Assembly: GCF_028389875.1 (NCBI RefSeq)
Contig: NC_084702.1
Coordinates: 41,477,053 to 41,541,052 of the forward strand
Direction: 5' to 3'
From: Rhea pennata
Taxonomy: Eukaryota; Chordata; Aves; Rheiformes; Rheidae
DNA length: 64,000 nucleotides
The notes below the pieces were generated by a model. The model was not told the DNA's origin and ran no database searches. It saw nothing but the letters and a program-made list of their open reading frames with translations. How positions within the stretch are numbered: the stretch's first letter is position 1; every line of letters begins with the position of its first letter. Below are positions 14,983 to 59,361 of this stretch, piece after piece. The position numbers were made by a program, and so were the translations under genes.

Positions 14983-15146
14983 TCAGAGGTCAAAACTTTT
15001 CATTATGGCATCATGGTCAAACTTGAAGCTCAAGAAAGCTCTCGATGAAAATGCAAATTTGTAATGGCCATTGCATGCCACAGAGTGTCCCTCTCCGTGT
15101 TCCAGCAGTGGGTCTTCACTGGAGCAACACATCTCACATGCTGCAT
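14983..15146 (-). CDS. DCP2: DCP2 coding exon 11 and stop
   Basis: 164 coding bases: two bases complete Asp362, then residues 363-415 and TGA at 14985-14983. It reads [20 protein letters not shown] and then [18 protein letters not shown], ending FDL. This is the conserved metazoan DCP2 C-terminus. The Cys-rich start (AACEMCC) differs from the mammalian text. Confidence 0.93.
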
Positions 15147-18100
15147 CTGCTTAAAGGGAGCGGGAAAGAAACATGGAACAAATTTAAACAGCTAGTGAGC
15201 AGTAAGTGGATCAACGACAGTATGCAAGGCTACAAGCCATGCACGAAACGCATATTCAGTGAACAGCTACAGTAAAGTCTGCGTCTGGTCATAAACTGTA
15301 AGGGCAAGTCGCACAGCCGTATTTACCAGGCATCTAGTAGCTCGGACAGATCTTAAAACTCATGACAATCTGGAGGCACTTTCAATAGCCAATTTTACTC
15401 ACAGGTTTCTATTTTGCAAATCACATCTTAGTAAGGAGGAAATAATTGTGGCTCTATTTCCTGAACAGGAAGTAGAAAACTGAAAACACTCAAGAAGCTG
15501 TTGGACCAATCTGTATTAACTAGTGAAACTGTAGAGGGCAGGAAGTATGATAACACTTCATTACCAGCATTATGTTGATTCAGCTATTTTCTGAATCAAG
15601 CCTTGGTTATTTTTGCCCAGCAACAAGGTGAGAGCAGACAGTTTTCATAATTAATTAAACAGAGGAATTGCAAAACTACACAAAGCTGACAAAAAACAAC
15701 AGTCTTCCTTAGAGGAATACTGCTTTGTAACATTTGGCAGGAGGGGAAAAAACAAACAAACAATCGTCTAGTGTCTTCAGCCCTAAATGCATGACAGCGG
15801 ATGGAAATTCAGAGTGTACTTGCCTGTTTCAAAGTTATCTTGCAGTCTTCTTGGATTAAGCCTTTTTTCACATTTCTAGTTAAGAGAATGACCACATGTT
15901 ACACATTTCATAAGAAAATTATTTATGTTCTTCGAGATATTGCTGAAGTGTCAGCTACAAGACACGTTGGTTACCTTTGCTTTGACACACCTCCTGATGC
16001 GGGAATTACGTCATTTACAACACAGAACACGAATTCTGTGATGCTGCTTTATCTAGTAAGCACACTCCAATTCCACCCAAGTGTTTCAGAAGCACACAAT
16101 CTTGCGAGTCAGCCAATCACTTTTAAGATAGAGGGTTTTAAAGAAGAATTTTGAGCAATTTCTGAATGTTTTAAGCCAGAAACTGCTTGCATATGATGGT
16201 GTGGAATCAAAGTGGCACACGCATATGCCTGTTCTTAAGTCTGCCTGCCCTGAAAAGCTGGGGGTAGAGTATTTGCAAACAGGCTGCTACTACCACTTAG
16301 ATTAGCATGCATTAAGGACAGAAACTTAAAACATCTCCAAAAAAGAATTAAGTGCTAGCACCATGGGTATACAGAGAAGTATAACCTTGTGCAATCTGTT
16401 AAGAGCTTCCTGGCCTTCAAATTAGGTTAGAAAACATTTCTGAGAAATGTAGTGTTTAAACTTTAGTTCATAAACTAAATAATCATGAAAACACAAACAA
16501 AACAATACAGAAATATTCGGCCAAGTCTATAAAGAGCTTGCACACTAACTGTGGAGGATTAACAGTTCCACTCATTTCTAGAAAGATCCTGCAGACTACC
16601 ACCATCATAAAATACAGCCTTTTTTATAAAGCCACAGCATTTCTGGAAAGTCAATCCTCTAACTTTTCATTCTTCTACTCTCAGACCCAAATGCAGCTTA
16701 ACCATTGCTTTCTACAAAAATGATTTCACAAGGAGGAGAGTTTATGGTTTCTGCATTTTTACATGAAAACAAAAAAGAAGGCAAGAAGTACAAGCCAAGA
16801 TAAGAAAAGTCTAGCTTACAGCTAATAAATAAGAAGAGCTAAAGCCTGGGCAAGCAGTTCTCCACTGCAGTTCAGCTTGGGGCTCAGTTGCACAAAAGCC
16901 AACTGAGCAGAATTAGAGAACTGTAAAGACCAGTGGGGAGGAGAAGGGGGGGGAGGAGAAGATGTTAAGGAAGTAACTCAGTGAGTTCTCCCAGCCGGCA
17001 GAACTTTGGGGGCAAGGACAGTTACAACAAACAAGAGGTAGGAAAACAAGAATTCATACTGGCGTTTACATGCTGCTGAAGAAAGCACAGGAGATGCTGG
17101 CACACAACTCAAAAGTCTAGCTGATATCTCAAAATTCATGCCAGAGAAGAGGGAAATAATTAAGTATATACTTTATAGTTTTTTTATCTAACTGTTGAAT
17201 AACAAAACTTGTTATTTAAAATAATGTCTGACATATTAATGTCTTATATATAATGTATACATAGATTTACAGTGACATACGTTAGCATATCACACTATAG
17301 TATACTATAACATGTTACCTGACAGGAACACAGAAAGCTGCAGGAGGACTGTCTACTGACAGAGAGACGCTGACGAAATTCTCAGCAGATGAGATAAGCC
17401 TTATTTCCGAAATGCTTACTTAATAAGGTTTAGTACGCTTACCTATAGATGTATGTACATGTAAGTTAAGAAATGGCACATTCCTACAACATACCTACTG
17501 AATATTCTGTTCAAATATATTTTTGATAGATACGCACTCCCGCTATTACTGGAACCTGATAAATGAGACAGCCACTACATGTTTCTTACCAAGGCGTGGT
17601 TTTGCTTAGCTGGTTGACTGTGGACTCCGTTTGTTCGCTTCTTTTGGCTGGGAGTGTCTTGATATTGCTTTCTGCCATTGCCCCTCAAGTTCTGACTCAG
17701 CCATTACATCCAAAACATCGTAGAGACAACAGTTTAAATGGCAGCATTGAGCATTATTGCACTGTGACACTTTCTACTTGTTAACTAAACCCTCCCTCCC
17801 AGTACCTCAAAACATTTTAATATTTTTGTAGACAAACTGAAGCACACAGAAATTAACAAAGCAACATGCACTCAAGTTACAAAAGTTATCAGCTCTTACG
17901 CAGTCTCTTGCATATTACAGATGCATTGCTATACAATAAATACAACGCAGTAAGTTCCCACACCCTGATACACACATACTAGTCGTATGCAGAAAACTTC
18001 AAAGAGGTATGTGAAGGACACCGAAGGGCGAATGCCAACTGCTGTGCAGATCTGAAACAACTACAGCCTGATACCCACCCCCTCCAGTGTCAATACCAAG

Positions 18101-21079
18101 CAAGCGAGTCTGAGAACTCCTTGCAGGAATATTTTTCCCCCTTTTTTTGCAAGTTTTTCTTTTGCATGTTATGGCAATAAAATTCTTCAGTTCCAGGGCA
18201 GAATGATGAGTCTGGAAAATGTAACATACCTTTATTTTTAAAACTTCAGACATCTCTGGATGATTGTATGGCTTCTGTGGCTGTTTTGGCTTTACCCACT
18301 GCTCTCCCGAAAAGCCATCTGTAAACACCTGCTGACTACAGCGAAGTTTGGATCTGGCACATGAGAAAAAACAGGATTTACAACACAACTTCAAGGCCAT
18401 TAATAGAAGAACAGAAATACATTAAAGTTTTCTGCCCCTCCAGAACAAGCTGAAGTGTCAAAACTATAATGATGCTCACTCCATTCACCCAGCTTTAGCT
18501 TGCCTGCTGGCAGGATGCCCGTGCTCTGCGCAGACAGCAAGCTGTGCCCACCTTAGCATCTTTAATACGTCAGTGGTCAGTGCTCAGCTGACCCAAATTA
18601 CTGCAATGTAGCCTTCCTCATAGGAATCCAGGTTTGAAGATTTGCTTCACACTTTTAGTTTAGCTGAGACAAGAAAACAGTAGGACTTGTTTCCCTACCA
18701 ATCCTTTCCAGTGTTCTTGAAAGGTTTCGCTCTGATTTTAGACTGTTTTTCCAATACCCCTCTCAGTACTACTACTTCTTTAAAAAGTCTTATTTCTCTT
18801 ATGGAAGTAGCAAAAGCATTGAACAAAGTTATCTACTCATTCCAATTGTTTTTTGGATTCCTATATATAGGACTCAATAAATTATCTCAGTTCTGACATG
18901 GTTGAGAATTCACCCTTCCCTCCATCCTCCCTCCCCTAAAAAAAGCACATAAAGACAGTAATTAACTTTCCAACTTGTTTAAAATCCCCCAAGATATTCC
19001 TGTTATCTTATTAACCATTCCTATTCCTGAAACAGGAATATTCAGAGAGAAAGCTTTGTGCAACCAGTGTTTGCTAGAAAGGCTATAGACAGAAGAATTA
19101 AACTGACCTGGATCTTACCTCGCTTTTTCCATGTTGAGCTTAGAGGGTGTGCTCCCAGTAGATGAAAATCCATTGTCGCTATCTGAGGAATCTCCATTCC
19201 TTCGAGAAAGCCATTCCCTCAACGGCCTATGACCAAGCAGATGTTCAACAAGATTCACTTACTAAAACAAGTCTGAAGAAATTAACCTGTTCTGAAAGGT
19301 ACTGCCCTAGTATTTGGCTCATCTTGAACATACCTGATGAAGGGAATGGCCATAAAAAATTTGTTAGGTGCTAAACCTAGCTTGGACTTTGGGGTCATAT
19401 CATTCCTGTGGCATGGTAATTTGTCGATGGAAAACCATTCGATATTCTGAAAAACAGAAAAAACCCACACTGCTGTAGCATTAGAAAATTTTACAAGTGC
19501 ACCCCACCCACAATTATTTTCTTTAATTAAAAACTGTAACAAAAGACTTGAATTAACAGCCTAAAACAGCTTTCCACATAAGGCTAATTAATGACAAGCT
19601 ATTTTTCTGACTGTAACTACACAATAATGGCTGCTACAGCACATATTCATTGTAAGATATATTATCTAAAATACAAAAATATATTACTCAAAATCTAGTT
19701 GCTGGATAGTTTTCAAAACCCAGAAACCACAACAAACCACTGTGTACTTGCCATAGTACAGAGGTAGCAGCTTTAAGTGACTTTCAAAGCCACTACTGTT
19801 CCTGCTACTTTTGAAGTGCCACCAAAACCAGACCACCAATAATAATTCAAAAAAAATATCAAAAGCAAGGAACTTAGTCTGCAGAATATGTTTCAGCTTC
19901 TGTTACAAAAGAAAAAAATGGGAAGAATACAGAATCTGTGTTAGAAGAATTTTTACATTACAGTTTTAACTACCGTAACTGTATACTTTGTAGGATATGG
20001 GGAGATACCAAGAATTCTGATATGCATAAAAACCTGTATGAGCTTTTCTATTAATTAATCTAGCCCCTAAACCCAGCTCCAGTTAAGATAAATAAATTCA
20101 AAAGAAGTTACAAGCTGAGTGAGTTTCTAGAACAATTCTATATGAATTACAAAAATGACATGCCAGGTTGAACTATATCAGGTGAAGAAAGTACTTCAAC
20201 ATGTAGACAACCATCTTTTGTGGTAAGAACTCTACATAACTTTGACCATGTGCACAGGGGTGAAGAGAAAGGGAGAACGTTACTGTACTTTTTTTTTAAA
20301 AAAAATAGCAGTTCCCACTCTTTCATTTGGTGTTAAAACTGTATCACTGCAGTTCAGAGTTGCATGCCACTCTACTTCTATAAAATAATTCTTTAGTGCC
20401 AAACAAAGAGTCTTGTCCAGTCAACCATTAGCACCTTTTCCCATTTTGAAATCTGATACCCTGGTCAGTGGCACCATCTGCATAAAAAAAATGGAGATAG
20501 CTGTTTTAAAGTGAATTGCAGTACTAGAAAAATATCCAGATTTCAAAGTTGATGGAGGTCACCCACAGTAACAAATCTTCCAGCAATTCTGACACTTGCG
20601 TATCTGATTCTCCAGTTCACAATACCTGTTAACAGCCTAGTGGTACACAGATCATCTCAGATAGGTAGCTCCCAGTGCATGCTCCCTCCCCAGTCTCCTC
20701 TTTCACACACACCATTCACTAAGTCAGACTGTGTTAGTTATAAGAGAAAGCACACAATACTTAGTTCCCTCTTCTAATATGCAGAGGACTGCATATCATC
20801 AATTAATAATTTTATCTTCAGTTATAGCTAGGAATAACATGAAATGAGTAACGCATACACCACTTAGGTGAAAAGGAGGAGAGAATCAGTGTTTGCTTGC
20901 ACGTTTTAATGTTGTTTTCACAATTAATGGAGATGTCAGATAGGTGGTCAAGAATCAGTCTTTCCATCAGAGTTGCAAGAAGTTTGTAAGACCTTACAGT
21001 GATGAGATGCCATTTGTAACTAGTATTTGAGACATTCATCACATCTGGCAGTTTCATTATTTTACAGGCCAAAAGCTTT

Positions 21080-21127
<48 letters not shown>

Positions 21128-24100
21128 CACATACGTTATATATACACACACACACATATATTATATATGTGTGTGTGTGTGTGTACGTATATATATTATA
21201 AAAAGAAAATTAAGAAAACACTCAACCTCTACAACAAAGCACCTTCACAATTAAACAAACCAATACATACCCGAATTTCCCTTCTAGTTTTGGGATTGAA
21301 TTTTGTGTTCTTTGGAACTCCTGGAATGATGTACAGCCGTGCTAACTGATCATTAATTCGCAGCTCAATGTATTCTTCTTTGCAGATATAATCTTTTATG
21401 TCAAACCCAGTTTCTTCAAACACCTGAGAGGCATATAGATTATATGAGTATATACATTAAGATTCATCATTTCAAAAGCTATCATCATGAGGGAAGGCAC
21501 AACTAGTTTTCAGATCTACACAGGAAAGCAGGTTGCGGTTAACAAAAAACAAGCTTTAACAGATATATGCCTATTAACTGAAAGGGTATTTAAGATCCTG
21601 TATACTTCACATTTCTTTAAGACAGACAGATCTATAATTAAAAAAAAAAAAAATTCGAAACAACCTTATTAAACTTTCATTTATCAATTCATTAATATGA
21701 ATGCGGAGTCTCAAGCTGGTCCTTCACGCTGCTCGATGCATGGAAGTCTAATTCCCAGGAAAGGCTAAAGTACAAACATCTGCAAACTCTAGCAAGTTTT
21801 ATTTACAGCTCAATTGCTCTGTTCATTCAAATGATCTTTTTACCTTATGAAACTCCTACCCTCAAGATATATAACCCTTTTCAAGTTCAGAATAAAAAAC
21901 AGCAATAAGGTAGAATTACTTTGACTATTAAATTCAAGCTGGACATTAACACTGATAACGGGCAAATTTAAAACTACATTGTCTGCTAATCTCAGGAAAA
22001 GACAGAAGTGTTGTATCTGCTGGAGATTACTAGAAAGACAATGATGTTTCAAAAGAACATTTGTTAGTGTATTTTAAGGTCTATGTTTGCAGCAAAAGAA
22101 GGCTACAAGTTTCATTTCCAAAAATGGAGAGGAAATTAAACACAAACAAGAAGATACAATTAATAAAAGCAAATATTAGATTAGTTAGTCTCCGAATTAG
22201 TACATATGACCTTTCATAAAAAACAGGAAACAAAACATCTTCCTATATAACTACATTAAAAGCAGCAGTTAAAAAGAACAAAAACCGAAAAACACAAGCA
22301 ACCCACAAAAAACATGCTTCTTCAATTAAAAAGAAGATGCCTTTCAATCTTATTACTATAACCAATATTTTCCATTCCTAAAGGATATTTCCAGATGGTT
22401 CAATTGATTTCAGGGTAGAAATTCATCTCACCAAGAGAATAACCCATTCAGTGTTACTTTGCCCTCATCAACACCTGAAATACTACTGAACTGTATTTGT
22501 ATTGCCCAGTGAAGATGCCTCAAATTAGACCATGTACAGTGTCACACAGATACAGTTTAGGGCTTTAGACAAGCACTGACTCAAGTGCAAGCAGCTGAAA
22601 GATTTATGCACAGATATTACGGTCATGTCCACTTCTGGCAGTATCTAAACTTAGAAGAATTTGCCAGGTTTGCCACAGTAGCAGTCTATCCTGGAGAAGA
22701 CAGCTCACAGCAAGAGCGTTACTCGCTCATGTAATTTAAAGCAATTCTCCAAATGAAAAACACATCAAAGGAGTTTTTGCCAGTATAACTGTGCCTGCAT
22801 TAAGGCTGTTGATAGCATGACACAAACTAAAGGGGAAGGGATATTTCATGTTATCCTTTCCCAAACTAGTTATGCCCACTTTCAACAAGCCCTTGTCAAC
22901 TGTGCTGCAGTCCATATTTTTTTGGTCTCCTCTCCCTTCAAGTTGCAGTCCTTCAGACGAACCTTAATAATACCTGCCTAGCAAAATTTTAATTAATATG
23001 CTCTTTTATGGGTGAGAAGAGATACTCACTGAATAATAAAGTTAACTTCATTGGCCTTCTGATCATCTTTCCTAATCCTTGAGCTATGCAATGACAGTCC
23101 ACTGTATCTACAGCTCAGGTGTTTTACTCTTCGATAAGTCATACAATACTACATAAACAATGTTCTGCGCTCAGGAATCAGTAAGGAATCACATGACAGT
23201 TCACTTCACATCTGACTACTGCATAATAACGCACTGCTAAGATATAACACCTGATTTTGTTATTCCGAGTCCCTATGAAGTAGCTAAATGGTATAGAAAA
23301 CATCCTCAGAAAGTCAGAAATAGTAAGTTTTTCATTCATCTGTTTTCAACACATACACATAGGAAGAAAACACATGATTTCTCAGATGCTCACGCAGTTC
23401 AGTCAAGAAGAAAAATAATGCATCTTATTACTTTCCTTCATCAACTTAATTCTTTCTCAAGATAAAGTGTATTACGAGACTCTCAGTTATAGGAACACTG
23501 AGTTTATAACCAGTAATATTCTTTTACAGGTTTTTTTTCAGTATACAACTCTAGTATAAGTTTCAGATTTCCTGCAGCAATAAATCCTGCAGATTATTTT
23601 TATAGTCTATTTGCCATATATAGTGATCCTTGGTCCTGTATCATTGAACAATTTAAAATAAAGTTCTTTGTAGGTTTTACATAACCTTCTACAACCTCCA
23701 TCAACTTCACATAGCCCTTCTTACCTAGGCTCAATTCCCACTCTTCCATTATCTTACAGTTCTGGTGGCTCTTGCAATTAATATTCCAAAAGCCATAGAG
23801 CAGAAGAAATCATTAAGAACAAATAAGTTATTTACCTGATTTTCATAAGCAGATACCTAAATAAAATGTCTTATTATCTAACGCATATATCCTGCTCTCA
23901 GCAAGATTTCTTTTCTTTATCTTAAAAGAAAAATTCAATTTAAGAGAATCAAACAAAACTTACCTCTCTAGCAGCACAGTCATGAGGAGCCTCTTCTTTA
24001 TTTACCTTCCCTTTTGGAAAACCCCAACCAGACTTTGCTAAATAGCCCTGGACCAAAAGAACCTGCAGAAAACAAGAAATGCAACTGTCAACATCCATTA

Positions 24101-27100
24101 TTCTAACCAATTTCTAGGAAACCTCTTTCCTTTAACCTCACAGATAAACTTTTCACTGGATTGGTTCCTTCACTGGAGAAGGAACCAATCCTTAAGCAGT
24201 CATTACTCAGCTCTCTGATAAAGTTTTCTGTGTTCTGAGAGAGGCGGAAAAAAAAAGGAAAAAGAAAAGAAGAAAGAAAAGAAAGCAAAAGTGTACCTCA
24301 TCTCCCATATTTTACACATACATTATATTCCTGTACACATTTCAACTGCATCATATTTCTGTCAGGTCTCTGTGAATCTGAACTGCCTCAAATTTATTTA
24401 TTTATTTATTTTCAAGATGACTAAAGTGAATTACAAAAAGATTACTTTTGCCAGTTCACATCCCATGTGTCTAGCTAGTCCTTCACCATTATTTCCATAC
24501 TTACATTTTCAAGTGTCTCATCAAGAATAATTGCACCATAGGTTGGCACTCCCATTTTATACTCCTTCCACTCATCTAAAACCTTCTGTACATCTTCACC
24601 TTGAGGCAGTAAAAAAGGGCAGTGATTGAAGAGTACAGCAGCATGTTAAGGATGCTAAATTTATCCAGTTTCCAATCATATGCAGTCAAACGAAGATACC
24701 TACTCAACATTTACAATAACCTTCTCAGAGTGTTTCCAGATATGTTCTCTTGGATGTGAAGAATATTACAGATTCTCACCGTGCAGAGGAAATACAAATA
24801 ACATTTACAACTCTAGAACTTTGAAAGCAAATGTTCAAGTCCTTAAAAAAATCTTATCAAAATCCCAAAGACAGTATCAATAAAAATCCTTTAGTATTAT
24901 ATTTAAAAACAAATACCACAGCAGAAATAACATTCCTGGCAAATGTAAGCCAGAAAGAAAAAGGTGTAACGAACAAGTATTTTCTACTACACTATTTCTC
25001 TTCTGCTGCCTACAGCAGCACAACAGGAACTGCTTTAGTCTGAAAAATACTGCTATAACTTAAAATTCTACCTGAAATTAATCAAAAACTCTACATAGTA
25101 TCTAGTAACCAAAAAATAATAACAATTTATTGCTAAAATAAGTACTTATAAGTACTGTCAGCCTTCCAAACCAAGTCTCTGATGTTCAAACTGACAAGGA
25201 ATTAATTTGGACAGTGAAACCACAGATGATATTATTATAAAGGTTAGAACAAATAATCTAGTTCCATGTCAAAAAGGAATGGGAAAAGATTAAAATAAAA
25301 ACACTTTCTGCATGTTGGTATGAAATTTATTTGTCAAGTTTTTTTTTCCAACAAGGCACTGATCATAGAAGTTCTGCTTTTTTTTCCAGTAAGTGTCAGG
25401 CCTGGCAGAAGACAGCCATAGCAGTTCAGTAAAAATGCCTCCTCCTCCCTATCAACAGGACAGTTTCTATGAGAATCCTGCAGCAACTGCCAGAACTCCC
25501 AACAAATACATACTGCTTTCCATTGGGGAACATATACCACCTTTAGCTACACTCGCACCAAGTTTTTCAGTGAAAGGCTTTAAATAAGGAGAGAGCATAC
25601 ACTGAAGAGTTCCAACAGCTCATGTGAAACCCACCCAGTCTGCCAACCTGCAGCCATGAGGAAAAGTGAATAATCTTCCTTACTTTCCACAGTTCCTAAG
25701 CAGCAAGAGAAATATCTCTTCTAGAAGCCACAAAACTATGGGAGCACTGAAAAGTTAAAAATCATGTCTAGTAGATAATCACCAAGACAGGAACATCTCC
25801 TGTTTGCATTCCATTTTCCTGTTGCAAATACAAGATACAAAGTTTTACTAACAGTACGTAGTTTGCATTTTATCCACAGAGTCTAAAAACATTTATAGTA
25901 ATAAAAAGGATATCAGCTTTAGCAAAGTCTCTTATCCCACACTGAGGTAATCCTGGTGTGTTTTGCATGTAGAAATCCAAGTAAAACCAATGGGCGAGTT
26001 CAATCTGAAAACATACTCTGATTGCATTGTCTCTCTCTTCACTTGGAATGTGCAAAATAAATCGGCTGCCAGGAAAGAAAGAAAAATAAGATTAGACAAA
26101 CCTATTGATTTAAATCTAACAATGAAAATGCAGTACAGCAGCAGTTTTCCTAATCTCTGAGTGCAGAGCAACAGATCTTCCTGGTGATCTGCACAGCAAA
26201 AAGTTTTCATGTGAAAGTTACAGCTTTTAAAATTAGGAAGGAAAATGTGTCATGAGGTCCCAAAACTCAATTACAAGTAATTAGTAAGTAATTTAACTGT
26301 TGTGAAAACAAAGAAGGTGAAGACAGCCTAAGTAAATGGCTATATTGCAAAAATTAAATAATTTTTAAATGCCCAGTAAAAAAATTTCACTGAATTCCAA
26401 TATATTTCTTTTGAGCACAAGTTAAAACACATTCATGTATTTTTTTCCACTAAAACACCACAGTAAAATATCATTTTTTGTAAATTTTATAGTTTATCTA
26501 ATTCTGGCAATATGATCTTATTCATTTCCTCAGTCTGAAGTAGGAAGTGGAAAATTGGTACATTTTTCACATCTATTTTACAGGTACCTCCAGTTTGTAC
26601 CTCCCAAAGTTAAAAGACGAGGCAACAGTAAGAAAGTAAGAGAAAGAAAAGAGAAAGGTCAAGCAATCCAAACCCTAAATTAAGGCTCTGCAATAAGATG
26701 CTACATTAAGATTGTGCAGCTTCTACTCGTTTATCTAGGAGCCACAGAGTATAACTCAGTAGCAAGACAGTATGATGAAAAATGAAATGTGCATGTAAGT
26801 CTTGTTAAATAAAGGGTCAGAGCAGTCCTGCTATTGAAGCATACATATAGATTAATTTGCCAGAACTAGAATTGTTATCTTTGTTTTCTGTAACTCTAAA
26901 ACAGCCTAAGAGGAACTCTACAGACACTTGAAGACATTCTATATCTGGCTTTAGCTTGCGACTTGTTTTTATATGCTGCCAAGTAACATTTCATCCTCTG
27001 AAAAAGAATTAAGATGTAGCAGTTTTATTTACTAGCAGGTAAAAGCCATGATAGTTTTAAGAAGTTTCAGTGAAAGTGACATTAGATTTTTCTTTTTTTT

Positions 27101-30100
27101 TGGGGGGGGGGTATCTTTCAAGGAATGGCTTTGCAATTAAATCGTTTAACAATAGTCACCACCTATACCTGATCCTCACACAGATCTCTGAAGTGGAATA
27201 TAAAAGTCTACTTATTACTTCCTACAGTTGAAAAATGATTATTTTTAAGAGCTAGTTTATACTGGTTCTTCATTACAGGCCTCAGTGCTATAGAATTTCA
27301 GTACCAGATTCTGTGAACTCACAGCTATGGATATTTGACTCAGAATATAGCACAATGTTACCTACAGTAATGGATGAATTCCACATCGGAAACAAAGCCT
27401 ATAGTCTGAGTCTTTCATCTGATCTACTTGATTTACTAAATCCAACACGTAGGAGAATTTTTAGTAACATGCAGTAAGAATCCCATCCCATTTAAGCTTA
27501 ACTATAACCTACATAATTTTACTATATATTCCACTGCTGACAACCTGGCAAACATTGATGGTAATTAGTATCAGAGAGAACGTCCACTGGTACACATTGT
27601 TTTCTCCTACACAAGGAATCAATTTAATAATTTCCCTTTTTCAAGTAAACATTTAATTTGGTGCTAAATGCTATACTTGCTACTAAATTGCCAACCTCTA
27701 CCCCCAGCAAAATATATCATCACAGAAATACTGCAAACCACACCTTGTATATACAAGAGCCTAATTAGTAACATTAGGCCATAAACCATACCTAAGAACA
27801 TAATTTAGGCCTTCCTACAGGGTAAGTTTATATATGAAAATTAAGTTGCTTCAAGCCACTACAGATAATAAAAAGGAGATTTAGCCCAATTAATCATATA
27901 ATTTAATGGTATTTCGTAATTTAAGATCAAAATTGTTGAATACAAGAAATCCACAGTCATCCTGCACAATGCATAAGAACTTAGAACCCAAAGATAAAAC
28001 TAAAATAATAAAAACATATCACATCCACCCCTCACGTCATACAAAATTAAGGTATCAGCTGAGGTGTCTTTGGTGCTGGCAACAGCCGTGAGAATTACCC
28101 GCAGGCACTGAACTGTAGCTGCCCTGCCCTGAACAATGGAATTATTACTTAGACTAACTGGCTGAATTAGGTGGCACAGCTTCAAATGATCTGAGGACCT
28201 ATATATGAACCTCTTTGATTGTCTTTTGAGTGGGATCAAAGAAAAGTGATTTGGCTTGAAGAAAAATCTACATGCATTTTAATTCAGCAGTGTGTTATAT
28301 TGACTACCTCTACAACCACTCACAGTGGTCTTTTTGTCACAGAGAACAGTATCAGATAACAAGCAGGTCAACTGCAAATACAGGCAGAGGTACTTAAGTT
28401 GAGCCCTCCTTACACAAGAGGGCTCTGCATTTAACAGACACTTTTCTACAGAGAATCCAAGCTTCAGGTGAAAGGAAAATATACCTGTCCGAAGAGAACC
28501 CAAGTCTGAAAGATACTCTGACACTCTCAAGATACACAAAGAGAGTGGCTGTGTTTTGTGGACATCTAAGGTTTAACTGAGCTTCTTGGTTTTAAAGTGA
28601 AATAAATGTATGTGTTATATATAAAAATATATTCACACACACAAAATCCTAAACTACTCAGCAAGCTTGACCTGAGATCAGATTTTTTTTCTCTTTTTCT
28701 TTTTAGCTTAATAAAAGAAATACACATTTTTGCCATCTCCTAAAAATTCAACAACATTATTTAGACTTTTAGGTGACACACTATACAGTCCATATAGAAA
28801 AAGTAGAGATTTTCTAAGGGTCCTGTAACCTCCCAAAGCTTTTATTATACTGAAATTATCATAATATTCTAAATATTGAAGGCTCATTTGCCAGCAGGAC
28901 TAACAACAAAAAAATAGTGTGGGTTGTGTTAAAAGATGTTAAATCTAATGTAAGCTCAATAACTAAGGAAAAAAACTTGCAAAGCTTCTCCTACTAAAAT
29001 TTCCACATCATACAGAAACCGAAGATTGCAGAAGTAACAGATCTTCTAATATTCTGTTTACAGTTAACCACCCCAAGTGCATCACCACTGATCTTCCACT
29101 TCCTTACCTCCCTTGAGCCAAGGCCTGCATGGTCCTCTCACTTCTCCACTTTCTCTCTTTGTCAAAGCATTAGAGGCCAATTCCCCTACTCCTTTCAGTT
29201 GCTCTGCCCATGTCCAAAGCAGGGTAATATATTCGAAACAGGGCTGATCTGTCGGCAATAATGGAAGACAAGCCCCTAACCTACCAATTCGTAGCTTTTT
29301 TTTTTTTAATTAAAGCCACACCAATAGATTCATGCAAATACCAGACAAATCAGCATTTTAAAGGTAGAATATGACAGCAGCTCAAATGGAACACGATTAC
29401 ACAGACAGTGGGACTAAGCCTGAAACAACTTAAGATCCAGATTAGTCATGTGCCCTTCCACCAGCTTCCCTGCAGGCAGGCTATTTCAGTTCTAGAAGTA
29501 TTTGAATTCCCCCTCCTGATTCTCTGGAATAGTCTTAATTCATTCTTTATATGTGAGCAGGCATCTAAAGGAAAAGCCCTGCCTCTGAGGGGTCTCTTTA
29601 GGGAGCTCAGAACAGACGTTATAGACAAACAAACATGTTTCAGTGGCCAGACTTACAGAACTAAAATTAGTACCTATCCACTGCAAACTTTGACTCTTGC
29701 TTAGATACAAAATGAAACAGTAGTGCACTGAACAGGCCTGGTTTTCTGTGGAATTCTCAATTCTAAGCACTCTCATTCATCTGAAAACAGTAATTTCACG
29801 CAAGTGGACTATCCTTCACTTCTGGCAACCATTTTCTGTTGCACGTAAATACTTTAGAATCTGTTCAATGTAGTAAGATACAAGGATTATTTCATGTGTA
29901 CACCACATTCAGTTCTGGGCATCAAATTCTGGGGATGATACAGATGAATCAGGAAGTCCAAAAGACAGCATTAGTGATGATCAGAGGTTGAGATCATAAG
30001 AAAACAAACAAAAAGTTTCTGTGTCTTACACTATGAAAACTTACATGTGTAGCCTTTAGGATGAGAAAAACTGATCACTCACTCTAAAAGGATCGGCAAA

Positions 30101-30991
30101 CAATAGAGAACAATTTTGCAGTCATGGGTGTTCCTTGACCCCTTTTTCCCCTGTCCCACCAGACCCCTCTTTTCTAGTAGAGGTAGATCAGCAGAAAGGA
30201 CTCCTCATCACCTATCACCCCATCAACCAAACTAAACTTCTGAGCTATACGCATCACGTTAACTCATCACAACACGCACTGTATGAACCTTACGCTTACA
30301 ACTCTCCTCTCACTCGCACAAACCTCGCCGATGCAGTTTTACTTCCTTGGCCAAACAGTACGAACTTTTGAACCTCGAAACACTGGAAGAAAAACATGAA
30401 GCATCCTCTGCTGCTCCACCCCCCTCCGCAATATTCTCGATTTCTTCCGCGCTGCTCATTTAGCGCTACATCGGTTTTCCACTCCGGTGCCCACTACAAA
30501 GCAGCAGGTACCTTCCGCACCCCGCCAGGGGAGCTTTCAAGAGGCTCCTGACGCGGCAGCACCTCCCGCCAAGACGCCGATGCGGCCCCCGCGCACGCAC
30601 AGCGCGAGGCTCCTCAGCAGCGCCGACCCCCTTCCGTTTCGCAGCCGCCGCAGGAGGCCCAACACCCCTTCCTTCCCGAGGCTCCCGGACCGCCTCCCTC
30701 CCGCCTCGCCCTCCAACCTTGCCCAAGAGCTCCAAAAAGCCCCGAGCCGACTGCGCTGCCGTGCCCAACGGACGGGCCCCGCGCGCACCGGTGGGAGGGG
30801 GGGAAGCCGCGCGCGCCCCCTCCCCCCTCAACGGCCGCGCGCCCGGGGCACCATGGGAGGGGGCGCCGCCGCCGCCGCGGGGGGAGGGGGAGGGAGCTGC
30901 CCAGCCGGGGCTGCCCGGTCGGCGGTGGCCCGAGCTACCTGCACAGGTCGTCCAAAACGCTGCTGGGGATCTCGGCCCGTTTGGTCTCCAT
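14983..30991 (-). CDS. DCP2: DCP2, m7GpppN mRNA-decapping hydrolase, complete coding region
   Basis: Eleven exons join in frame: 30991-30939, 26065-25914, 24632-24505, 24062-23964, 21423-21271, 19446-19334, 19226-19119, 18353-18230, 17691-17590, 15875-15824 and 15146-14983. They total 1248 bases and encode 415 residues (the human protein has about 420). DCP2 removes the 5' cap, releasing m7GDP, in cytoplasmic P bodies and with DCP1/EDC proteins. Seen: start METKR, the N-terminal regulatory domain with W44 and D48 (the DCP1/cap-side face), and the Nudix box at residues 129-151 (GX5EX7REUXEEXGU) with metal-binding E144, E147 and E148. After box B comes a Ser-rich, basic disordered tail and the conserved ending FLSFKFDH..., a motif tied to EDC4 in metazoans. 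No break or missing catalytic residue is seen. Introns 2 and 10 have unusual ends. Confidence 0.96.
15147..15823 (-). other. DCP2: DCP2 intron 10: GC-AG intron
   Basis: The 677-base intron starts GCAAGTACAC and ends TTTAAGCAG. The donor context ACAG|GCAAGT is otherwise a near-perfect U1 match, as is typical for GC donors. The nearby GT (in AAGTAC) would break the conserved frame. With GC the joint reads ...NFETDAACEM, aligning with the mammalian NFETDAVYDL. Confidence 0.85.
15824..15875 (-). CDS. DCP2: DCP2 coding exon 10 (52-base small exon)
   Basis: The exon encodes [17 protein letters not shown] plus the first base of Asp362, matching the family segment K-C-E-K-K-L-H-P-R-K-L-Q-D-N-F. It is too short to show as a long open frame. 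It is followed by GCAAGT, a non-canonical GC donor. Confidence 0.9.
15876..17589 (-). other. DCP2: DCP2 intron 9
   Basis: A GT-AG intron of 1714 bases (donor GTAAGAAAC, acceptor TCTTAACTAG). A purine-rich G-run occurs near 16938-16960. Nothing else is recognised. Confidence 0.8.
17590..17691 (-). CDS. DCP2: DCP2 coding exon 9 (basic segment)
   Basis: 102 bases, 34 codons, phase 0. It encodes [20 protein letters not shown] and then [14 protein letters not shown]. The basic QKKRT patch is conserved in mammals. The acceptor is chosen as TGAGTCAG because it alone keeps the frame with exon 8. Donor GTAAGA. Confidence 0.9.
17692..18229 (-). other. DCP2: DCP2 intron 8
   Basis: A GT-AG intron of 538 bases, donor GTATGTTACA, acceptor GCTGAGTCAG. 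Nothing else is recognised. Confidence 0.8.
18230..18353 (-). CDS. DCP2: DCP2 coding exon 8
   Basis: 124 bases: one base completes Arg269, then 41 codons read [20 protein letters not shown] and on to [12 protein letters not shown]. The family reads alike here (RHSQQLFPDG...QWVK). Acceptor CATGTGCCAG, donor GTATGT. Confidence 0.92.
18354..19118 (-). other. DCP2: DCP2 intron 7
   Basis: A GT-AG intron of 765 bases (donor GTAAGATCC, acceptor CATGTGCCAG). No other feature is recognised. Confidence 0.85.
19119..19226 (-). CDS. DCP2: DCP2 coding exon 7
   Basis: 108 bases, residues 233-269 in part. It encodes [20 protein letters not shown] and then a Ser/Thr-rich, probably disordered segment ending MEKA. 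This is the start of the flexible C-terminal region. The donor is GTAAGA. Confidence 0.92.
19227..19333 (-). other. DCP2: DCP2 intron 6 (short)
   Basis: A 107-base GT-AG intron (donor GTATGTTC, acceptor GGTCATAG), the shortest in the gene. Nothing else is seen in it. Confidence 0.85.
19334..19446 (-). CDS. DCP2: DCP2 coding exon 6 (end of Nudix domain, box B)
   Basis: 113 bases: 37 codons (residues 196-232) plus two bases of Arg233. It reads [16 protein letters not shown] and then [16 protein letters not shown], the box B helix region that contacts RNA in the family. Acceptor TTTTTCAG, donor GTATGT. Confidence 0.94.
19447..21270 (-). other. DCP2: DCP2 intron 5 with repeat-rich donor end
   Basis: A GT-AG intron of 1824 bases. 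Its first 200 bases, in gene direction, contain the TA/CA/TG repeat cluster at 21083-21200, about 70 bases from the donor. Confidence 0.85.
21083..21200. repeat. Compound (TA)n/(CA)n/(TG)n repeat with palindromic core
   Basis: (AT)n at 21083-21120 is followed by CA-rich, TA-rich and TG-rich blocks. Bases 21144-21160 and 21164-21180 are 17-bp perfect inverted arms around the spacer TTA, so a CA arm pairs with a TG arm. The outer TA blocks can extend the pairing imperfectly. Confidence 0.85.
21271..21423 (-). CDS. DCP2: DCP2 coding exon 5 (catalytic Glu pair)
   Basis: 153 bases, 51 codons, residues 145-195. It opens [14 protein letters not shown], which holds the catalytic/metal-binding pair E147 and E148, and ends NPKTRREIR before donor GTATGT. 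The acceptor is CTCTCAG. Confidence 0.95.
21424..23963 (-). other. DCP2: DCP2 intron 4
   Basis: A GT-AG intron of 2540 bases that interrupts the Nudix signature between REx and EExG. No other feature was recognised in it. Confidence 0.85.
23964..24062 (-). CDS. DCP2: DCP2 coding exon 4 (first half of Nudix box)
   Basis: 99 bases, 33 codons, phase 0 at both ends, residues 112-144. The text [19 protein letters not shown] is followed by the first part of the Nudix signature, from G129 through E135 to R143-E144. Acceptor TTTTCTGCAG, donor GTAAGT. Confidence 0.95.
24063..24504 (-). other. DCP2: DCP2 intron 3 with a strong hairpin
   Basis: A GT-AG intron of 442 bases (donor GTAAGTATGG, acceptor TTTTCTGCAG). 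On the + strand it holds a TTTA tandem tract at about 24390-24411 and a perfect inverted repeat at 24158-24191, about 95 bases before exon 4 in the gene direction. Confidence 0.85.
24158..24191. repeat. Perfect 14-bp inverted repeat (hairpin)
   Basis: Arms GGATTGGTTCCTTC (24158-24171) and GAAGGAACCAATCC (24178-24191) are exact reverse complements around a 6-base loop. The word TTCACTGGA also occurs twice in direct orientation here. In the DCP2 pre-mRNA it would fold upstream of the exon 4 acceptor. Confidence 0.85.
24505..24632 (-). CDS. DCP2: DCP2 coding exon 3
   Basis: 128 bases: two leading bases complete Val69, then 42 codons run from [17 protein letters not shown] to LDETLEN. The donor is GTAAGT. 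It covers the link from the regulatory domain to the Nudix fold ([11 protein letters not shown] is the first Nudix beta segment). Confidence 0.94.
24633..25913 (-). other. DCP2: DCP2 intron 2: AT-AC, U12-type (minor spliceosome) intron
   Basis: The 1281-base intron starts ATATCCTTTTT (25913 downward), matching the U12 donor consensus ATATCCTTT. A branch-site match TCCTTAAC lies at 24652-24645, and the intron ends in AC (24634-24633), about 13 bases past the branch adenosine. No GT-AG pair at the same place gives the conserved protein. With AT-AC ends the junction reads ...[15 protein letters not shown], as in the family. Confidence 0.9.
25914..26065 (-). CDS. DCP2: DCP2 coding exon 2 (regulatory domain)
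   Basis: 152 bases with one leading base completing Ser18, 50 codons, and one trailing G. It encodes [16 protein letters not shown] and continues through AHWFYLDFY to RDFAKA, the alpha-helical N-terminal regulatory domain. The exon is followed not by GT but by ATATCCTTTTT, a U12-type donor. The frame across the junction (G + TC giving Val69) supports this border. Confidence 0.94.
26066..30938 (-). other. DCP2: DCP2 intron 1
   Basis: A GT-AG intron of about 4.9 kb with donor GTAGCT and acceptor TTTCCTGGCAG. It contains a decayed CR1-like piece near 29.9 kb. Nothing else is recognised. Confidence 0.85.
29896..30005 (+). mobile_element. Decayed CR1-like LINE fragment
   Basis: Text such as TTCAGTTCTGGGCATC and GATGATCAGAGG resembles the CR1 region that normally reads CCAGTTCTGGGC...GATGATCAGAGGGCTGGAG. 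The rest is heavily diverged. It is an old 5' and 3' truncated copy in DCP2 intron 1. Confidence 0.45.

Positions 30992-38563: not shown

Positions 38564-59361
<20,798 letters not shown>

Follow-up and report, generated by a model that had tools for sequence, protein, structure and literature searches.

Gene content of the window and structure of DCP2

The minus strand of the window, i.e., the whole stretch of 64,000 nt analysed here, carries a complete DCP2 gene with a coding region that extends from ATG to stop over positions 14983..30991. The plus strand carries REEP5 (38722..59358), which was located with a protein probe in blocks at 38722-38841, 39035-39127, 52856-52999, 57714-57902, and 59311-59358. 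A scan of the window against Rfam at gathering scores gave no matches and ARAGORN found no genes in it. Simple repeats were observed at 20818..21349, where stop-to-stop ORFs on both strands contain IYIYIY and HTHT runs.

DCP2 was searched with tblastn, using the human DCP2 protein as an approximate query. This returned 22 rows against the window, 11 of which form ordered blocks from 30991 down to 14986 (E ≤ 3e-4); the remaining 11 were scattered and weak (E 1.2 to 8.2) and were dropped. Junctions were picked by eye at the edges of the tblastn blocks and then verified by reading frame. The joined blocks make up 11 exons with a CDS of 1248 nt, a single frame of 415 aa ending in ...MKSFDL, and a normal stop. 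Introns 1 and 3-9 are of the GT-AG class (n = 8), intron 2 is AT-AC, and intron 10 is GC-AG (n = 1). The latter (15823..15147, minus strand) reads ACAG/GCAAGT ... AAGCAG/ATG and appears to belong to this uncommon major-spliceosome subtype, so that non-GT donors are found in two DCP2 introns. At the join of exons 8 and 9 (18229..17692, minus strand), where the acceptor CAG/AAC was chosen by frame only, the protein reads KIK/NLRGNGR, which is shorter than the human sequence at this place, presumably KGKNQSMRGNGR.

The identity of the gene was checked with the peptide encoded by exons 2 and 3, residues 1-75 of which are matched by the Pfam family PF05026 'Dcp2, box A domain' (E = 7.5e-27). The same peptide aligns with Dcp2 of S. 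pombe over 88 residues, across the exon junction and without gaps (best E = 1.5e-20). All five alignments listed in the PDB search are to S. pombe Dcp2 (E about 1.5e-20 to 1.9e-20), and the PDB matches comprise nine distinct sequences, eight of which would, by their names and sequences, come from S. pombe or K. lactis, the ninth being 6y3z. In collections without vertebrates, the 88-aa peptide gave four stretches fitting the pattern among viral contigs and 64 pattern matches among genome contigs, none of which was confirmed in either case, an outcome to be expected from the make-up of these collections. A Nudix box, recognised by eye through the motif GX5EX7REUXEEXGU, is present in the 415-aa protein and is encoded by exons 4-5.

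U12-type motifs in intron 2

Exon 2 (25914..26065, minus strand, 152 nt) ends with the codons for ...RDFAKA plus a single G and terminates in ...GCTAAAGCTG at 25914, and exon 3 (24505..24632, minus strand, 128 nt) opens with TCTTCAATCAC at 24632, its first two bases being the TC of the split Val69 codon (G / TC). The intron between them (24633..25913, minus strand) is an AT-AC intron of 1281 nt in phase 1, with ATATCCTTTTT as its first and ATCCTTAACATGCTGCTGTAC as its last bases. Its 5' splice site, ATATCCTTT at 25905..25913 (minus strand), agrees with RTATCCTTT at 9/9 positions and is followed by TT; from 25913 onwards the intron matches the U12-type donor consensus ATATCCTT(T) at 9/9. Towards the other end, the U12-type branch site ATCCTTAAC (24645..24653, minus strand) agrees with TTCCTTRAC at 8/9 positions, the sole mismatch in this extended motif being its first base (A where T is expected), and the core motif TCCTTAAC at 24652..24645 (minus strand) agrees with UCCUURAY at 8/8. 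The putative branch A (24646) precedes the final intron base by 13 nt, and the terminal AC (24633..24634, minus strand) is the first AC or AG 3' of the branch motif. By eye, a polypyrimidine tract is absent between the branch motif and the 3' end, where ATGCTGCTGTAC is found instead.

The original prediction had placed an AT-AC intron at 24633..25913 and had credited it with three U12 hallmarks, i.e., the donor, a branch site about 13 bases from the end, and the terminal AC. Its coordinates turned out to be exact, with the junction at 25914/24632 by sequence, and all three hallmarks sit at the exact exon boundaries. Measured against the published core consensus of U12-type introns (RUAUCCUU for the donor and UCCUURAY for the branch site; PMC10853781), intron 2 agrees at 16/16 positions. 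The MIDB paper gives 11-13 nt as the optimal distance from branch to intron end (PMC6717393), and the phase of intron 2 is in line with the known tendency of minor introns to avoid phase 0 (PMC10639083).

The nine other introns of DCP2 reach at most 6/9 on the donor motif and at most 6/9 on the branch motif and look like major-spliceosome introns. When the first 8 nt of U11 snRNA were paired with the donors, intron 2 gave -6.6 kcal/mol with 7 bp and the other nine gave -2.2 kcal/mol or weaker. A U12 segment gave -6.6 kcal/mol with intron 2 and values from -3.4 to -11.0 kcal/mol with the other introns; this comparison does not discriminate between them and was given no weight in either direction.

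Chance expectation

Among the 63,991 positions of each strand of the window, a 9/9 donor is found at one on the plus strand and at four on the minus strand, the donor of intron 2 included in the latter. Intron ends that combine an AC or AG with a branch site scoring 8/9 or better in range make up 4.7e-4 (plus strand) and 3.1e-4 (minus strand) of the window positions. With the boundary pair taken as given by the protein, the product of donor and end frequencies is 7e-9 on the plus and 2e-8 on the minus strand. A Markov-1 model of the intron, in which four joins and 13 branch positions were allowed, yielded a chance of 2.3e-8, and the overall figure for both motifs at fixed boundaries is thus near 1e-8.

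The window contains 13 loose pairs, defined as RTATCCTT followed by TCCTTRAC and an AC or AG at a distance of 60-20,000 nt; eight lie on the plus and five on the minus strand, intron 2 included. A motif pair alone thus proves nothing, and it is the coincidence with exon edges that carries weight: as judged by eye with DCP2 and REEP5 annotated, the pair 25913/24652 is the only one located at exon edges. Two other occurrences of the donor motif were looked at individually. On the plus strand (55221..55325), ATATCCTTT at 55221 is followed 97 nt on by TCCTTGAC at 55318 (TTCCTTGAC 96 nt on); this pair lies deep in REEP5 intron 3, flanked by the blocks 52856-52999 and 57714-57902, with no known exon adjoining, and was rejected as probably due to chance. 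On the minus strand, ATATCCTTT recurs as a 9/9 AT donor at 22388 inside DCP2 intron 4, has no partner branch site in the list of pairs, and was likewise taken as chance.

The exon 2/exon 3 junction and alternative explanations

The boundary of intron 2 cannot slide, because the last base of the exon (G) differs from the last base of the intron (C) and the first base of the intron (A) differs from the first base of the following exon (T). Four joins leave a single residue between A68 and F70, namely GA-TA (giving Leu), AT-AC (Val), TA-CT (Asp), and AT-TC (Asp), and AT-AC is the only one among them with accepted termini. It is also the only one that yields Val, the residue that we take human DCP2 to carry at junction position 69. 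The corresponding residue of S. pombe Dcp2 is Leu, which would need GA-TA ends, so the argument from Val depends on human DCP2; the termini and motifs decide here, and the residue alone would not.

On this evidence, the interval 25913..24633 (minus strand) is almost certainly a genuine AT-AC intron of the U12 type, and the DCP2 gene that contains it a functional vertebrate one, probably from a bird to judge by gene order, compactness, and protein sequence. One alternative is a GT-AG or GC-AG intron whose removal would alter the protein slightly where exons 2 and 3 meet, and room for this exists insofar as 48 in-frame, stop-free GT-AG or GC-AG pairs are available within 120 nt of either boundary. 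Nevertheless, all of the best 25 of these 48 (ranked by smallest change to the protein) lose V69-F70 and more, amounting to at least 12 residues of box A. In the mildest of these 25, 12 residues are swapped for 13 others through a weak donor (TCT/GTGGAT), and the residues lost include FxHCP, which is common to S. pombe Dcp2. We consider this alternative extremely improbable. The earlier statement that the protein is not preserved by any GT-AG solution is borne out for the best 25 of the 48 alternatives, all of which fail.

A different possibility is that the intron has AT-AC ends and is nevertheless removed by the U2-type (major) spliceosome. Such major-spliceosome AT-AC introns do exist (PMC6717393), and they make up 0.01% of the U2-type introns of chicken (PMC7367187, Table 2), but the donor of intron 2 agrees with GTRAGT at only 2/6 positions, and the complete agreement with both U12 cores, the position of the branch A, and the missing polypyrimidine tract all argue for the minor class, which makes removal by the major spliceosome very unlikely. 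As a single assembly was examined, a pseudogene or an assembly error also has to be considered; against this stand the presence of 11/11 exons, the intact frame, and the eight GT-AG and one GC-AG introns besides intron 2, and an assembly error would be very unlikely to place donor and branch motifs of this quality (9/9 and 8/9) exactly where they belong. To this last explanation we give next to no credence.

If intron 2 is indeed U12-type, the U11/U12 di-snRNP would recognise ATATCCTTT and ATCCTTAAC, the U4atac/U6atac.U5 particle would then join, and the AC located 13 nt past the branch A would be used. Splicing would thereby join GCTG to TCTTC and restore A68-V69-F70 within the N-terminal regulatory (box A) domain.

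Predicted consequences of failed splicing

The outcome of a failure to remove intron 2 was predicted for retention and for exon skipping. With intron 2 retained, translation would stop at codon 83 within the intron, after 82 aa (68 native and 14 intronic). Skipping of exon 2, of exon 3, or of both is predicted to end the frame after 29, 89, and 25 aa, respectively. The stop precedes the Nudix box in retention and in all three skipping cases, and, as this box is lost in every case, active DCP2 would need the minor spliceosome if it is this machinery that removes intron 2. Both the use of the minor spliceosome and the loss of product upon its failure are what we infer from the known class of the intron, and the dependence of DCP2 output on the minor spliceosome would follow from established knowledge of that class. 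A coupling of decapping capacity to the activity of the minor spliceosome would be plausible. Provided that intron 2 is spliced in the way typical of its class, production of the core decapping enzyme requires one minor-intron splicing event, which would make DCP2 a concrete candidate for explaining changes in mRNA stability upon failure of the minor spliceosome (U12, U4atac, U11/U12-65K, ZRSR2).

A further step would be to regard intron 2 as a valve. Because many exon junctions follow the premature stop, a transcript that retains the intron could, if exported, be marked for nonsense-mediated decay, a process that itself uses decapping. When U6atac is scarce, intron 2 would be kept, translation would meet the stop at codon 83, and the transcript would be destroyed by nonsense-mediated decay, so that decapping capacity would track stress and the activity of the minor spliceosome, and the system would contain its own feedback. 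We regard such a valve as unlikely. In one expression table of a study on heated human breast cells, with columns unlabelled in the part available, RNU6ATAC is raised (16.3, 11.8, 12.4) and DCP2 lowered (-2.5, -2.5, -3.0), and another table of the same study, also with unlabelled columns, gives 3.1, -3.4, -2.4, and -6.8 for DCP2 (PMC3931319). A rise of RNU6ATAC together with a fall of DCP2 on heating is a weak sign against a simple valve, and DCP2 could be lowered by many other causes.

Comparison with known minor introns

According to the MIDB paper, human minor introns number 770, about 22% of them AT-AC (PMC6717393), so a case in DCP2 is not surprising and the gene may already be among them. 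For birds, chicken is covered by both U12DB and IAOD (PMC7367187), and Table 2 of the same article has an entry of 18% for chicken U12-type introns. In our opinion, DCP2 probably figures in U12DB/IAOD already. The literature search, which covered article texts, confirmed no paper naming DCP2 a minor-intron gene, and 'DCP2' is absent from the main texts of PMC7367187, PMC6717393, PMC10639083, and PMC10853781. Two other articles (PMC11765398 and PMC3931319) mention both DCP2 and splicing terms, but in the sections available these are unrelated to each other.

Among individual AT-AC introns, those of prospero and SRSF10 resemble that of DCP2 in being minor introns in genes that act on gene expression; they differ in containing a nested major-spliceosome intron (PMC8329584), whereas none of the best 25 of the 48 near-boundary pairs in DCP2 preserves the protein. 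The minor intron of PTEN has been described as a switch regulated by U6atac and p38 (PMC3728624), and DCP2 likewise has a single minor intron, retention of which would reduce its product, a link by analogy only. Compared with the U12-type AT-AC class as a whole (U12DB, IAOD/intronIC, MIDB), intron 2 has the same termini, the RUAUCCUU donor, and the UCCUURAY branch site, and it shares the branch distance of 11-13 nt, the lack of a polypyrimidine tract, and the situation of one minor intron among major ones. No defining difference separates it from this class, the first base of the extended branch motif being A in place of T, and the comparison supports the view of DCP2 intron 2 as a clean, ordinary example of a well-known class of introns.
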